Assembly: GCA_017306865.1 (NCBI GenBank)
Contig: JAFKHH010000011.1
Coordinates: 744,001 to 808,000, forward strand
DNA length: 64,000 bases
Direction: 5' to 3'
Source of the DNA: Filimonas sp.
Lineage (GTDB): Bacteria > Bacteroidota > Bacteroidia > Chitinophagales > Chitinophagaceae
Within the stretch, counting starts at the first letter, position 1; each line of letters begins with the position of its first letter. Positions 3,760 through 48,323 of the stretch are shown piece by piece. A program made the position numbers and the translations under genes. A model generated the notes under the pieces. That model was not told the DNA's origin. It searched no databases and saw only the letters and a list, made by a program, of their open reading frames with translations.

Positions 3760-3901
3760 GCGTGAATCGTGAGACGGCAATCGTGAATAGGTGCATTCAC
3801 GATTGCCAGATCACAACACACGTTATGATTGTTGTTTTGATAATGAGACAGCGTTGCATGAAGTAGGCTTTTATTCACGATTGCCGTCTCACGATTCACG
3901 C
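3760..3901 (+). repeat. 30-bp perfect inverted repeat inside the pnt operon (CGTGAAT family)
   Basis: Arms 3760-3789 and 3872-3901 are exact reverse complements over 30 bp, separated by 82 nt. The left arm reads CGTGAATCGTGAGACGGC and onward, the most complete copy of the CGTGAAT vocabulary here. It sits between alpha-2 and beta genes that must be made together, so the mRNA would carry a very stable hairpin mid-operon. A short TAATTGTTGAATG word precedes it at 3741-3753. Confidence 0.9.
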
Positions 3902-3918
3902 ACTTAAATAAATAGTTG

Positions 3919-11751: not shown

Positions 11752-11962
11752 CATCCTAGTCTCCGACTAGGATGCCGTGGTATTTCGACTCCATCGAATA
11801 AGTACAATATGATCGACGAAGTCCAATGACTTCGCCCTGGTTCGTGTCCTCACGAACCAGCTACCAACCGGCGCGTGAGGACACGCGCCGGGGCTTTTGA
11901 ATAAGTACAATATAATCGACGGAGTCGATATTCCTTTACATCCTGGTCTGAGACCAGGATGA
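11752..11962 (+). repeat. Four-hairpin repeat element, copy 1 (double hairpin with complementary loops)
   Basis: The outer hairpins are CATCCTAGTC-TCC-GACTAGGATG (11752-11774) and CATCCTGGTCT/AGACCAGGATG (11940-11962). The core is GGTTCGTGTCCTCACGAACC (11839-11858), a 9-nt spacer and a second hairpin 11868-11891 with stem CCGGCGCGTG/CACGCGCCGG. The core loops TCCT and AGGA are complementary. The words AATAAGTACAATATAATCGACG occur on both sides of the core in near-identical form. Further on, 12005-12040 carries TTGCGTCGCACTCGTCATC, a tag that recurs near the other two copies. With the terminator this explains the 404-bp gap before 12074. Confidence 0.85.
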
Positions 11963-19766: not shown

Positions 19767-19854
19767 CAAGTTGTGAGTACCCGGCAGTGGCAAAAGAGAA
19801 TAACGAACAAGGAACAAGGAATTTCGGATGATGAAGTGAGGATCATTTTACGCC

Positions 19855-19907
19855 CCGGCGCGTGTCTTCACGCGACGGAATGCAACTGGTTCGTGAAGAC
19901 ACGAACC
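19855..19907 (-). repeat. Double hairpin with complementary loops, copy 3
   Basis: On the minus strand: GGTTCGTGTCTTCACGAACC (19888-19907), a 9-nt spacer (19879-19887), then a hairpin at 19855-19878. The loops are TCTT and AAGA. Compared with copy 1 (TCCT and AGGA), the C-to-T change in one loop is matched by a G-to-A change in the other. The outer CATCC hairpins of copy 1 are not present here. The tag GTGTGCGACGCAACGGTGAT lies at 20018-20037. Confidence 0.85.
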
Positions 19908-20047
19908 ACGGCGAAGAGATGGAATAACGAATAAGGAACAAGGAATATTGAATGATAAAGGCAAGAAGAATGTTCAATATTCACTGAGCAATGTTCAGTA
20001 AAGAATAGAACGATGAAGTGTGCGACGCAACGGTGATGATAGTAGTA

Positions 20048-26490: not shown

Positions 26491-26682
26491 ATGCAACAAC
26501 TAAAGAAATGGCAGATCGCCGCAATCGTCATTGTCGTTTTATTGAATGTGTACACCATAACAGATGGTATTATTTATCAAAGCGTTTTCGGAATCCTCTT
26601 ATCTATTGCCAGCCTCGGGGCATTGTTCCTGTGCGTGAAAATATTTAAAAGAATGAATGAGATGGAGGAAAGTGAATCGTGA
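26491..26682 (+). CDS. Small membrane protein, 63 residues
   Basis: I do not recognise a family. Two hydrophobic helices (about residues 8-27 and 31-50: IAAIVIVVLLNVYTITDGI and GILLSIASLGALFLCVKIF) are followed by a charged tail KRMNEMEESES. The ATG at 26491 follows a terminator. The reading frame ends in the first bases of a CGTGAAT-family repeat, which supplies its TGA. A transmembrane layout of this clarity supports a real gene, but proof is thin. Confidence 0.55.
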   Translation: MQQLKKWQIAAIVIVVLLNVYTITDGIIYQSVFGILLSIASLGALFLCVKIFKRMNEMEESES

Positions 26683-26814
26683 GACGTGAATCGTCAAACG
26701 GTAATCGTGAATACTATTCCATGTTTCAAAACGTCTGTGGCAATTTCACACCAAGAGTTCTGAGAATATCTTGGTCAATCATTCACGATTACCGATTCAC
26801 GATTCACGGTTTCG
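26672..26814. repeat. CGTGAAT-family inverted repeat between convergent genes
   Basis: The left arm GTGAATCGTGAGACGTGAAT and onward (26672-26713) and the right arm ATTCACGATTACCGATTCAC and onward (26781-26814) are largely complementary; CGGTAATCGTGAAT and its partner match exactly. The left arm contains the stop of the 63-residue gene and the right arm the stop of the thioredoxin gene on the other strand. Each gene sees the repeat in the same sense orientation. Confidence 0.85.
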
Positions 26815-27286
26815 TCATCTTCTCTATCTCTATCTTCACCTGTGGCGCTGTTACCTGCCTGTTGAAGAAAGAGCGGTAATTGGTTGTCTTATTTATAAAT
26901 AGGGACACTGGGATAGCACCGTCCCAACTGGGATCTATTTTAGGACAGAAGGTGTCTGCATTTGTTTCATTTAGCCATACTACTTCAGACTGGTAATTAT
27001 TCTTTTTAATAAACGCAGGAAGATTTTTAGGATAGTCTTCTTTAAAGTCGAGGCTGACCAGTAATAGTTTTACCTGCTTGTCTTTGTATTCTGCAACCGC
27101 ACTTTCAAACCACGGTATTTCATGTATGCATGGTGTGCACCAGCTTGCCCAGAAGTTAACAATCAGGGGCGTCTTGCTGCTGTCAATTATCCTGACAAGA
27201 TCATCGATTTGTAGTTTTTTGATGTTTTGTGCCAATAGAACCTGTCCGCTACACATCAAAAGAAATAAAATAAGAAGACGCTTCAT
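26804..27286 (-). CDS. TlpA-like periplasmic thioredoxin
   Basis: 160 residues with a signal peptide (MKRLLILFLLMCSGQVLLAQ). The active site is FWASWCTPCIHEIPWFESA with a standard CxxC. LLLVSLDFKEDYPKNLPAFIKKNN and the cis-proline block GAIPVSLFINKTT follow. It probably reduces disulfides in the periplasm, as TlpA/ResA relatives do. The last codons and stop (EKMTKP) lie inside the CGTGAAT repeat, so the tail was probably set by the repeat. The TrmH gene lies upstream, ending 20 bp before the start, so the two may form one unit. Confidence 0.9.
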   Translation of the reverse strand: MKRLLILFLLMCSGQVLLAQNIKKLQIDDLVRIIDSSKTPLIVNFWASWCTPCIHEIPWFESAVAEYKDKQVKLLLVSLDFKEDYPKNLPAFIKKNNYQSEVVWLNETNADTFCPKIDPSWDGAIPVSLFINKTTNYRSFFNRQVTAPQVKIEIEKMTKP

Positions 27287-27305
27287 GTGTACTACTGTTT
27301 ACTGA

Positions 27306-27896
27306 TCAATCGCTTTCGCTCAGTTTCCATTGTTCCATTAATTGTGCCATCTGCACCTGCGGCAGCGCGGCCTGGTCATAATGGCCTGCTAATCTTTTCT
27401 GCCGGAATACTTCGTAAATGCTAATGGCGCAAGCCACGGAGATATTCAGGCTTTGCAACATGCCAACCTGGGGGATTAAAAAATTGCCGTCCGCCATACT
27501 GTGCAGCTCTTCGCTGATGCCAATACTTTCATTGCCAAATACCAGCGCTATTTTTTGAGTAAGGTCCAGTTCATACAGATCCTTCGCATGGTCTGACAGG
27601 CGAGTGGTCAGGATGGTAAAGCCTTGTTCTTTCAGCATATTTATACAGCCTGCTACACTGTTGTGATGATGTAAGCTGATCCATTTTTCTGCGCTTTTGC
27701 CGCTGTAATAACTCCACTTTTTAGGACGCTTTACCGAGGTAGAAATAATGTGCACATTCTGTATGCCTACGCCATCGCAACTACGCATGACTGCTGTAAT
27801 GTTACGCGGGTCTTCTACATTTTCCATTACCACCACTACATCGCCTTGGCGATGATCGAGGACATAAGAAAGCTTTTCTTTTCGTTCAGGAGTCAT
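27306..27896 (-). CDS. trmH: SpoU/TrmH-family tRNA 2'-O-methyltransferase
   Basis: 196-residue SPOUT methyltransferase, most like TrmH, which methylates the ribose of G18 in tRNA. Motif 1 is VVVMENVEDPRNITAVMRSCDGVG, motif 2 is IALVFGNESIGIS and motif 3 is FLIPQVGMLQSLNISVACAISIYE, the knot that binds SAM. The short N-terminal part and C-terminal extension fit TrmH rather than RlmB, which carries an extra L30-like domain. The ATG at 27896 has a TACTTTTG box ending four bases upstream, so the message is probably leaderless. Confidence 0.9.
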   Translation of the reverse strand: MTPERKEKLSYVLDHRQGDVVVVMENVEDPRNITAVMRSCDGVGIQNVHIISTSVKRPKKWSYYSGKSAEKWISLHHHNSVAGCINMLKEQGFTILTTRLSDHAKDLYELDLTQKIALVFGNESIGISEELHSMADGNFLIPQVGMLQSLNISVACAISIYEVFRQKRLAGHYDQAALPQVQMAQLMEQWKLSESD

Positions 27897-27900
27897 GAGG

Positions 27901-27908
27901 CAAAAGTA
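27901..27908 (-). promoter_or_regulatory. -7 box of a probably leaderless trmH promoter
   Basis: On the minus strand TACTTTTG, then CCTC, then the ATG at 27896. The same four-base spacing is seen at the RsmF-like gene and folC. Confidence 0.6.
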
Positions 27909-27915
27909 GGGAATT

Positions 27916-28108
27916 GTGAGTGGTCAGTTGTGAATTGTGAATGCAGCGTGCAAACAGTCTGAGTAATAGTTGAAACAGATTATAGGAGCAAAACAATAAG
28001 ACCTATAAGGTTTCGAAAAACCTTATAGGTCTGTGCATTGATTATTTTGGATTGCCTCATTCACAACTGACCACTCACTACTCACGATTACCGATTCACG
28101 TCTCACGC
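27916..28108 (-). repeat. Nested inverted repeats between folC and trmH
   Basis: Outer arms: GTGAGTGGTCAGTTGTGAAT (27916-27935) and its exact 20-bp complement (28059-28078). Inside sits a 15-bp perfect hairpin AGACCTATAAGGTTT, loop CGAA (27999-28032). Next to the folC stop, 28080-28107 carries a CGTGAAT-family copy. On the minus strand all words read in the sense direction after folC. Confidence 0.85.
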
Positions 28109-28111
28109 CTC

Positions 28112-29398
28112 TCATACTTCCCCCACCAAAAACACACTGCCGCATACTAATACCAGGTCTTCTTTATGTGCATGTTGCTTCGCATGTGCCAGCGCATCTT
28201 GTACGTTGGGGAATATTTGTCCTTGTAAGCCTGCTACTTCGTGGGCTAAGGCTGCAAGATCTGCTTCCGGTAAGGCGCGGGGTATTTGTGCTTTGGTAAA
28301 ATAATATTTAGCCGTTTTAGGAAGCAAGGATAATATTTTAGCAATCTCTTTGTCCTTTACCATGCCTATTATCAAATGGAGCTCACGATAGGAGGCCAGT
28401 TCTAACTGTGCCATCATTTGCCTGATACCATCTTCATTGTGGCACACATCCAGTATAATGGCGGGGTCTTGTGCAATCAACTCCCAGCGGCCATGTAAAC
28501 CGGTTAGCTTCTTTGTATAAAGCAAACCTTTCAGAACATGCTCCTGTGAAATATTCCAGCCTTTTTGTTGCAGCAGGTGAATGGTAGATAAAACGGCCGG
28601 CAGGTTTTTTACCTGGTAAACTCCGGGCAGATCAAGCGTATAAGTAGTTCGCTCGTCAGTACGCTTTGTTGCAATGTTCACCGCAAGGTGATGATGCGTG
28701 TATTGCCAGTCAGTTGGATAAAATTCGTGATGGGAGAGCAGCATAGGCGCACCTTTTTCTTTGGCTGTGGTTTCGAATACCGGTAAGGTTTCCGGTAGCG
28801 TCTCACCGATTACAACCGGAATGCCCGGCTTGATAATACCTGCTTTTTCGCCTGCTATTTTTTCCAGTGTATCGCCTAGCATATTCATGTGGTCCCAACT
28901 AATGTTGGTGATCACACTTACTTCCGGCGTAATAATGTTTGTACTGTCCAGGCGACCGCCAAGACCCACTTCTATAACAGCTACATCTACTTTTTGCTGC
29001 GCAAAATAATAGAATGCCATAGCAACAGTGATCTCAAAAAATGATGGTTGGATCTCTGCGATCAGTGGCTGGATCTTTTCTGTAAAATCCACCACAAAAG
29101 ATTCTTCGCACATACGTCCGTCCACCTTTATGCGCTCACGAAAATCTTTTAAATGCGGAGAAGTATATAAACCGGTTTTATAGCCCGCTGTTTGCAATAT
29201 AGCGGCAAGCATGTGACTGGTAGAACCTTTACCATTGGTGCCTGCAATATGAATAGATTTAAACTGATGTTGCGGATTGCCTAATGCTTCACATAATGCA
29301 ATGGTATTGGTGAGGTCTTTTTTAAAAGCTGCTGCACCTATACGGCTAAACATTGGAAGGGAGTTAAACAGGTAGTCAAGCGTTTGCTGGTAATTCAT
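28112..29398 (-). CDS. folC: Folylpolyglutamate synthase / dihydrofolate synthase
   Basis: Adds glutamate to folates, and often also to dihydropteroate, using ATP. The 428-residue Mur-ligase-fold enzyme shows the P-loop IAGTNGKGSTSHMLAAIL (about 50-67), SPHLKDFRERIKVDG, FFEITVAMAFYYFA, and the metal/ATP block VGLGGRLDSTNII followed by ISWDHMNMLGDT. The C-terminal domain has LLYTKKLTGLHGRWEL and DVCHNEDGI. It complements the folate genes at the window's left end. The start at 29398 has a TATCTTTG box ending four bases upstream, suggesting a leaderless message. Confidence 0.95.
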   Translation of the reverse strand: MNYQQTLDYLFNSLPMFSRIGAAAFKKDLTNTIALCEALGNPQHQFKSIHIAGTNGKGSTSHMLAAILQTAGYKTGLYTSPHLKDFRERIKVDGRMCEESFVVDFTEKIQPLIAEIQPSFFEITVAMAFYYFAQQKVDVAVIEVGLGGRLDSTNIITPEVSVITNISWDHMNMLGDTLEKIAGEKAGIIKPGIPVVIGETLPETLPVFETTAKEKGAPMLLSHHEFYPTDWQYTHHHLAVNIATKRTDERTTYTLDLPGVYQVKNLPAVLSTIHLLQQKGWNISQEHVLKGLLYTKKLTGLHGRWELIAQDPAIILDVCHNEDGIRQMMAQLELASYRELHLIIGMVKDKEIAKILSLLPKTAKYYFTKAQIPRALPEADLAALAHEVAGLQGQIFPNVQDALAHAKQHAHKEDLVLVCGSVFLVGEV

Positions 29399-33246: not shown

Positions 33247-33303
33247 AAGGGGCTAAGATAAAATAATTGCTTGAAACGTGAACTGTGAATGATCGACGCG
33301 AAT

Positions 33304-33774
33304 TTTTTTAAACACATAGGTGACTATGAGGTTGCCCTTTACATTTGTTCCGAAAAATTAAGACGTGTCTATGGATAGATGTGCAAATCATTTGGGTAAT
33401 TACAAACCTGTTTCTCCGGAGGGACACAATAGGGCACATAGGGGAAATACTTCGTATTTCTTTAGCGAAGTTTTTTAAACACATAGGTGACTATGAGGTT
33501 GCCCTTCAGATTTGTTCCGAAAAATTAAAGCGTGTCTATGGATAGATGTGCAAATCATTTGAGTAACTACAAACCTGTTTCTCCGGAGGGACACAATAGG
33601 GCACATAGGGGAAATACTTCGTATTTCTTTAGCGAAGTTTTTTAAACACATAGGTGACTATGAGGTTGCCCTTCAGATTTGTTCCGAAAAATTAAAGCGT
33701 GTCTATGGGTAGATGTGCAAATCATTTGAGTAATTACAAACCTGTTTTTCCGAAGGGACACAATAGGGCACATA
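33304..33774 (+). repeat. 167-bp tandem repeat, 2.8 units
   Basis: Units begin at 33304, 33471 and 33638 (TTTTTTAAACACATAGGTGA), an exact 167-bp period. The third unit stops after 137 bp. Units differ by only a few bases. Each holds CTATGAGGTTGCCCTT, GTGTCTATGGATAGATGTGC, TTACAAACCTGTTTCTCCG and, in units 1 and 2, the hairpin GAAATACTTCGTATTTC. 167 is not a multiple of three and the reading frames shift, so it is not coding. A fourth, diverged copy lies inverted at 36831-36988. A hairpin AAGCCGC-TTC-GCGGCTT (33778-33794) follows the array. Confidence 0.95.
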
Positions 33775-33834
33775 GTGAAGCCGCTTCGCGGCTTGAGGGA
33801 TTCACTACAGAGATGGAGCGTTGCATGCAGAGCA

Positions 33835-36675: not shown

Positions 36676-36781
36676 AGGAAGGGGAAGTGTTTAATTGTAA
36701 TATGGTTGAATTACTATCGCAAAAATCACAGAGGATACGCAGAGACAAATACGTGAATCGTGAAACGGTAATCGTGAATGG
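36676..36781 (+). repeat. Composite phrase after the outer-membrane gene (right mirror arm)
   Basis: Order after the stop: GTTTAATTGTAATATGG words, ATCACAGAGGATACGCAGAG, ACAAATACG, then CGTGAATCGTGAAACGGTAA (36752 onward). It is the reverse complement of 33835-33949 apart from a small indel and scattered changes. CGAAGGCACAAAGACAG words follow at 36800-36818. Confidence 0.9.
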
Positions 36782-36830
36782 GGCTTACGCACATTTGCCA
36801 CGAAGGCACAAAGACAGAAAGGCTCACTAA

Positions 36831-36988
36831 GAAATACGAAGTATTTCCTCTATGTGTTCTATGCGTCCCTTCGGAGAAACAGGTTTGTAATTGCTCAAAA
36901 AATTTGCACATCTATCCATAGACACGTCTTAGTTTTTCAGAACAAATTTGTAGAGCGACCTCATGACCGTCTATGTGTTAAAAAAATC
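36831..36988 (-). repeat. Inverted distant copy of the 167-bp unit
   Basis: The reverse complement aligns with the whole tandem unit: TTTTTTTAACACATAGACGG, GTGTCTATGGATAGATGTGC (identical over 20), TTACAAACCTGTTTCTCCG (identical) and GAAATACTTCGTATTTCTTA. It is roughly 80 percent identical by eye. It ends eight bases before the stop of the next minus-strand gene. Confidence 0.88.
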
Positions 36989-47644: not shown

Positions 47645-48170
47645 CCTACTGTGTACCCACATCTTTTACCGCCAGGTTGCATACCTACGGCATGCAAGAG
47701 AACCCGATAAAACAGATACTACCAATATCCGATCCCTCCGGGCAATGTCATTAAGTTAAGCGAGAAAGAATATTAGCGACCGAAGCGAATATTTTTAAAC
47801 ACATAGTAAGCATAGGTACAAAGGCACATAGTTTTTATTTTCTTGCTGATTAATAGCAAAGCTTGTTTGTATAAAGAGTACATAGATCATATAGAGAGGC
47901 CGCTTTGCGACCTCTGCGTATTCTCTGCGGTCTTTGCGATATTTTAATTACCAGCGAATGAAACCCGATCAATGGAACTCTCTTAACTTAATGACATTGC
48001 CCGTAGGGATCAAACATCGGTAGCTTCCCAAATACAAAGGCTTCGGCATGCCGTAGGTATGCAACCTATGCTGTCGCTCCTCCGGAGCTCTGTCGAATAA
48101 ATGGCTATATGCTACCGTTCTGACGAGCCTCCGGCCCTATTTTATTTAAAAGATGTGGGTACACAGTAGG
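47645..48170. mobile_element. 526-bp palindromic element with perfect 23-bp terminal inverted repeats
   Basis: The ends CCTACTGTGTACCCACATC (47645 onward) and the mirror (48148-48170) are exact complements over 23 bp. Both flanks carry TCTCCGA (47638-47644 and 48171-48177), extendable to GTCTCCGACC, which looks like a target duplication. Inside are two further perfect inverted pairs: 47674-47695 with 48046-48067 (22 bp) and 47740-47760 with 47982-48002 (21 bp). The core 47761-47981 contains host-like words (AAACACATAG, CCGCTTTGCGACCTC). No transposase frame is present, so it is a non-autonomous, MITE-like element. It interrupts the outer hairpin of double-hairpin copy 2. Confidence 0.85.
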
Positions 48171-48290
48171 TCTCCGACCAGGAGTCCCTGGCCTTCCGAC
48201 TCTGCTGAAATGGTTTTATCGACGGAGCCTTTGCCTTGGTTCGTGTCCTCACGAACCAGCTACCAACCGGCGCGTGAGGGCACGCGCCGG
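48171..48290 (+). repeat. Double hairpin with complementary loops, copy 2
   Basis: GGTTCGTGTCCTCACGAACC (48238-48257), a 9-nt spacer identical to copy 1, then a hairpin at 48267-48290. The loops are TCCT and AGGG, pairable if one G-U pair is allowed. The first outer hairpin CTCCTAGTC-TCC-GACCAGGAG is split by the 526-bp element: its left half is at 47631-47644, the right half at 48171-48184. The tag GGGAGTGACACAACAGAAGC follows at 48385-48404. Confidence 0.85.
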
Positions 48291-48323
48291 GGCTTTGAGA
48301 GACCAGGAAGATAAAAGATGTAA

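Follow-up and report, generated by a model that had tools for sequence, protein, structure and literature searches.

The window analysed here is a 64,000-nt stretch of the genome of Filimonas sp. (Bacteroidota; Chitinophagaceae). It contains three copies of an element that consists of two hairpins separated by a short spacer. The first-pass annotation had described this layout, and all three copies were confirmed at the positions it gave, with the structure it gave. The repeat unit extends past the ends that were originally assigned to it and is 61 bp long, 5'-GCC...GGC-3'. Both of its halves are the same unit, ...CGTG-NNGA-CACG...GGC, mutually inverted. Read outward, this REP unit has the form GGTTCGTG-NNGA-CACGAACC-nn-GGC. 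Two stem variants occur, which we designate TT-type and CG-type; the TT-type is the one that adjoins the transposase gene described below. A doublet of REP units that forms hairpins was defined as a REPIN in Pseudomonas (Bertels & Rainey 2011, PMC3116915), and we use this term for the element. The coordinates of the features are collected in Table 1.

Table 1. Locations of REPIN copies, hairpin units and related features in the window, and of the candidate transposase gene in the same genome
Feature	Location	Strand	Description
REPIN copy 1	11834..11894	+	61 bp GCC...GGC; TT-type REP (inverted), 7-nt spacer, CG-type REP; convergent ORFs on either side
TT-type hairpin unit, copy 1	11837..11860	-	Outward loop AGGA; stem CTGGTTCGTG/CACGAACCAG
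CG-type hairpin unit, copy 1	11868..11891	+	Loop AGGA; stem CCGGCGCGTG/CACGCGCCGG
REPIN copy 2	48233..48293	+	Outward loops AGGA/AGGG; convergent ORFs on either side
REPIN copy 3	19852..19912	-	Outward loops AAGA/AAGA; flanked by two + strand ORFs
Empty host-repeat copy (TAAATGGCTATATGCTACCGTTCTGACGAGCC ... GTGGGTACACAGTAGGTC)	48075..48185	+	No REPIN inside; counterpart of REPIN-carrying repeats elsewhere in the genome
REP-associated tyrosine transposase gene	C32:590411-590992		193 residues; same genome as the window; NF047646 match and hairpin flanks

Comparison of the window with itself gives 96% identity over 68 bp for copies 1 and 2, and an inverted match of 83-86% over 65 bp between copy 3 and the others. 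Folded as DNA, the copies form hairpins on both strands with z from -5.4 to -8.5, and none of the shuffled sequences folds equally well. Folded as RNA, they form both hairpins on either strand (z from -3.8 to -6.9). The predicted minimum for both DNA and RNA is two separate hairpins rather than one long stem. The window also holds repeats of other kinds: a 167-bp sequence repeated three times in tandem, with an inverted counterpart at a distance of about 3 kb (33298-33798 and 36829-36986), and several short CGTGAATCGTGAGACGGCAATCGTGAAT-type repeats in both orientations (3761-3908, 26664-28121 and 36744-36782).

Copies in the host genome (6.15 Mb, 42 contigs) were gathered from the matches of pattern searches. 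The pattern for pairs left the loops free (CGTGNNNNCACG, 8-30 nt, CGTGNNNNCACG), and the reversed pattern served as a control. Genome-wide there are 46 strict paired copies, nearly all of them the REPIN, against none for the control. The single hairpin core occurs 121-143 times (control 2). An inverted partner is present for 103 of the 131 distinct hairpins that we collected, at an identical 31-nt spacing for 87 of them; the chance rate is 2%. The GGC foot is found on 91% of these hairpins. The two halves of the doublet differ in stem, one being TT-type and the other CG-type, in 46 of the 52 pairs with standard spacing. Mean pairwise identity of TT-type units, compared as means alone, is 0.832 in doublets and 0.784 in singlets.

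The hairpins are predominantly intergenic (118 of 130 by a simple ORF rule, P 3e-60). Among the 113 placed copies with both neighbouring genes in view, 28 lie in convergent gaps and only 10 in divergent (promoter) gaps, although the latter make up 22% of gap length. E. coli REPs act as transcription terminators or stabilisers of mRNA 3' ends. A co-opted role of this kind, with the positions of the copies kept by selection on expression, would agree with the shortage in divergent gaps, with the strength of these GC-rich hairpins, and with the CG-type end, which frequently reads GGGGCTTTT. However, the T run belongs to the repeat itself and is absent from many copies, purging of harmful insertions equally predicts the avoidance of promoter gaps, and the association with a transposase is left unexplained. 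We consider such a role rather unlikely; it would in any case be secondary to, and compatible with, the identification of the element as a REPIN.

The first-pass annotation emphasized the loops. It reported the loop pairs TCCT/AGGA, TCCT/AGGG and TCTT/AAGA, which we read in the same way, and it took their complementarity as selected covariation within a structured RNA or cruciform, capable of forming kissing loops or of switching between hairpins and a long stem. The complementary loops of the three window copies and the strong RNA folding of both hairpins speak for this idea. It does not hold in a larger sample, where partners share a loop variant no more often than shuffling gives, an outcome of the kind that the annotation itself had named as its refutation. 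Partners have identical loops in 23 of 62 pairs, with 22.3 expected by shuffling (p=0.47); for the 52 pairs with standard spacing the numbers are 21 and 20.2 (p=0.46). The partner table for AGGA and AAGA loops (19, 17 / 4, 4) likewise gives a Fisher p=1. In 27 of the 52 standard-spacing pairs the loops can pair by G-U on one strand only, and in four they are broken on both strands.

The loops look complementary because the element is made of two inverted copies of one hairpin unit. After any single A/G transition one strand can still form a G-U pair; three copies were therefore almost bound to pass a covariation test. The matching loops are a by-product of inverted pairing and no evidence of loop-loop contact; as their identity between partners equals the shuffled level, neither a kissing pair nor a switching RNA is needed. 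Single units are also found alone or in direct orientation near transposase genes, the gene contexts around REPIN copies are varied, and an Rfam scan of the window gave no family above the cut-off. An RNA or cruciform with loops kept complementary by selection is thus very improbable. There is a general trap here: inverted hairpin pairs give complementary loops by construction, and loop covariation among a few copies is no proof of selection.

The claim of compensatory change, which fails between the loops, stands for the stems. Stem pairing was tested on one hairpin per species locus (62 loci), chosen on the inner CGTGNNGACACG alone, against 2000 shuffles that take species loci as independent of kinship. 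Outer stem pairs 1, 3, 5 and 6 show Watson-Crick pairing above all 2000 shuffles; at pair 5, for instance, 53 loci are paired, against a shuffle mean of 34.9 and a maximum of 42. The alternatives observed are T-A, G-C, C-G and A-T. Watson-Crick pairs at position 7 and further out are no more frequent than in the shuffles. Because the search pattern included the four innermost pairs and the loop's GA, these are invariant among the 62 loci by choice. A loop-blind count nonetheless finds loops ending in GA in 219 of 227 hairpins near transposase genes, and the loop-blind pairs in the genome of the window agree. The hairpins are conserved structures, and their stems show real compensatory change.

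The conserved foot of the hairpin is GGC on its 3' side (81-94% per base in 62 species). Directly 5' of the hairpin, where a canonical GT[AG]G would be placed, no tetranucleotide is conserved across the 62 species. Several copies in this genome do have GTAG ahead of the TT-type hairpin. There, however, it is part of the REPIN spacer, and it is unconserved in other species; we rejected it as a foot.

The candidate cognate transposase gene (Table 1) is surrounded by five REPIN-type hairpins, three upstream and two downstream. Its product matches the NCBIfam model NF047646 (REP_Tyr_transpos) with E 1e-19 and 70.8 bits, the curated cut-off being 80; two homologues that carry the same hairpins, L127 and L135, score 80.8 and 80.5. 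A match to the Y1_Tnp profile at G000:C32:590513-590731, inside the gene, appears only at E up to 1. At E 1e-3 the Y1_Tnp profile matches other genes, which were set aside: three that have none of these hairpins in their vicinity, and one RAYT with different hairpins. This second RAYT of the same genome (L004, G000:C29:726783-726992 plus flanks; 104.5 bits with NF047646) is flanked by another hairpin family, GGCGCAGGCCTCCCGGCCTGTGCC; hairpins resembling these lie close to some REPINs (L006, L286) and are absent from the window.

Genes L127, L135 and L141 of three other genomes are 50-60% identical to the candidate and have the same hairpins. In the alignment of the four proteins, H74-x-H76 (the HUH motif) and Y149 are invariant. 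Two of the three aligned homologues, L127 and L135, have YIHNNP, and the protein from the genome of the window has YIHGNP. A sequence search of solved structures returned no relative, and one was found by fold: the structure closest to the model of a Pedobacter homologue (pLDDT 92.5) is 4ER8, E. coli TnpA_REP in complex with a REP hairpin (Z 14.5 over 139 residues), compared with 10.2 for IS608. On these grounds we assign the transposase a predicted Y1 fold with the HUH motif and a single putative catalytic tyrosine. At L161:2200-2260, a partial duplicate of the first codons of the transposase gene (ATGCTAAACCCTCCAAACG...) lies upstream of the gene together with a hairpin; the sequence suggests a local tandem duplication.

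The hairpins accompany homologues of this gene well beyond the genome of the window. A scan of named genomes provided 80 homologous loci from Pedobacter, Niabella, Terrimonas, Ginsengibacter, Fulvivirga, Cyclobacteriaceae and others. A hairpin lies within 300 bp of the gene at 62 of them, on both sides at 50, and none was found within this distance at 18. Most of the hairpins at these loci (189 of 220) are in the nearest 11% of the flank, mostly directed away from the gene; the reversed-pattern control gave one match in all 80 loci. We also counted hairpins in 249 genomes of the order, compiling the counts by hand and treating genomes as independent of kinship. At least three hairpins are present in 10 of the 11 genomes with a strong homologue versus 18 of the 238 others (Fisher p=6e-10). 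Two genomes with many hairpins, G304 (84) and G473 (49), have no close transposase homologue that we could find beside them; perhaps the gene was lost there or is too diverged. The hairpins of G304, which belongs to another family of the same class, share the core, and many have GTCCGTG stems (e.g., L094).

Sites with and without a REPIN can be compared within a second interspersed repeat (CTGTTGAATTAAATGGC...; containing CTGTTGAATTAAATGGCTATATG...GTGGGTACACAGTAGGTC), which is found at 19 sites in the host genome, e.g., L283-L299. This host repeat is empty at L283, at L297 and at one site in the window (Table 1). In L289, L293 and L296 a REPIN follows AAATGGC in it; L284 and L285 have theirs at a second position. 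Since the same repeat is either empty or filled at different positions, the REPIN appears to behave as a discrete unit. The junction inside the repeat is common to several REPINs, so a part of their spread is copying of the host repeat. Filled and empty sites, compared within this one genome, show no visible target duplication.

A REPIN could be mimicked by a miniature, non-autonomous element derived from a different type of transposon, such as a MITE moved by a DDE transposase: such an element would also be short, intergenic and abundant, with inverted-repeat ends. But each half of the present element forms its own hairpin with a conserved loop, target duplication is not seen at the filled and empty sites, and the hairpin flanks Y1/HUH transposase genes throughout the phylum. 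No DDE transposase gene with such ends was noticed in the searches made for Y1 genes. We give this explanation hardly any credence. With a probability of about 0.9, we are dealing with a REPIN, for which the TnpA_REP/RAYT encoded at C32:590411-590992 probably acts in trans as the mobilising enzyme.

The element shares with the Pseudomonas REPINs the inverted REP doublet of fixed spacing, the extragenic location, the higher conservation of doublets than of singlets, and the link to a RAYT; it differs from them in its 4-nt NNGA loop, its GGC/GCC foot and the different stems of its two halves (PMC3116915). The modelled homologue has the same fold as E. coli TnpA_REP, and E. coli BIMEs likewise combine two different REP types in inverted orientation, y with z1 or z2 (PMC8266576). 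Unlike the REPs of E. coli, with their GTAG foot and stem bulge, the present hairpins are regular in the stem and lack a conserved GTAG. GTAG- and CGTC-tagged REPs also form homodimers and heterodimers, have 3-nt tails and short loops, are biased to intergenic regions and are occasionally nested in other repeats, but neither tag is conserved in our hairpins (PMC3733652). The CGTC families were reported without a transposase association (PMC3733652).

Also among the closest described systems are the REPtrons of TnpA_Y1 subclass 2.6 (or 2.4) of Bacteroidetes, which, like the present system, have a Y1 transposase with NHxH, WQ and YIHxNP motifs and a gene flanked by hairpins copied elsewhere (PMC6006769). 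For subclass 2.6 that paper describes a YIH[QN]NP motif and atypical structures that lack GT[AG]G. Its main text prints no hairpin sequence, and the motifs do not decide between the two subclasses for this gene. Our literature search for the hairpin core found no bacterial context, the only match being an unrelated paper on a human cell line. In sum, the element fits the known REPIN/RAYT systems, its foot being an atypical GGC/GCC where GTAG would be usual. It stands out by the GGC foot, by the NNGA loop and by joining a TT-type with a CG-type unit in a fixed heterodimer.

By analogy with these systems, binding, cleavage and transposition of the REPIN would most likely proceed as follows. In single-stranded DNA, for example the lagging-strand template, each REP would fold as a hairpin. 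The HUH/Y1 transposase would read the upper part of the stem and the loop, both conserved (CGTG-NNGA-CACG), together with the GCC/GGC foot, its tyrosine would cut near the hairpin, and the 61-bp unit would be joined elsewhere without target duplication. The shared loop sequence would be a mark of protein recognition, and the stems would co-vary because only pairing matters there. Recognition similar to that by TnpA_REP would account for loops that are conserved with no need to pair with each other, for stems that vary yet stay paired, and for the arrangement as an inverted doublet. For the TnpA_REP of S. maltophilia, changing the loop to its reverse complement severely affects binding and cleavage of the single-stranded REP hairpin, and cleavage requires the foot tetranucleotide (PMC8266576). 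Read inward, the foot of the present hairpins is 5'-GCC, in the position of GTAG in canonical REPs.

The hairpins of the Bacteroidota REP system are only termed atypical in the main text of the principal literature. What the analysis adds for this system is a defined consensus, one genome in which the element occurs about 50 times, and roughly 60 loci that combine a transposase with hairpins. It is possible, although we would put the odds somewhat below even, that these loci represent one REP superfamily that spans the phylum and is recognised by its NNGA loop and GCC/GGC foot instead of a GTAG guide. If so, the base-pairing rule by which the transposase selects where to cut may be a different one.
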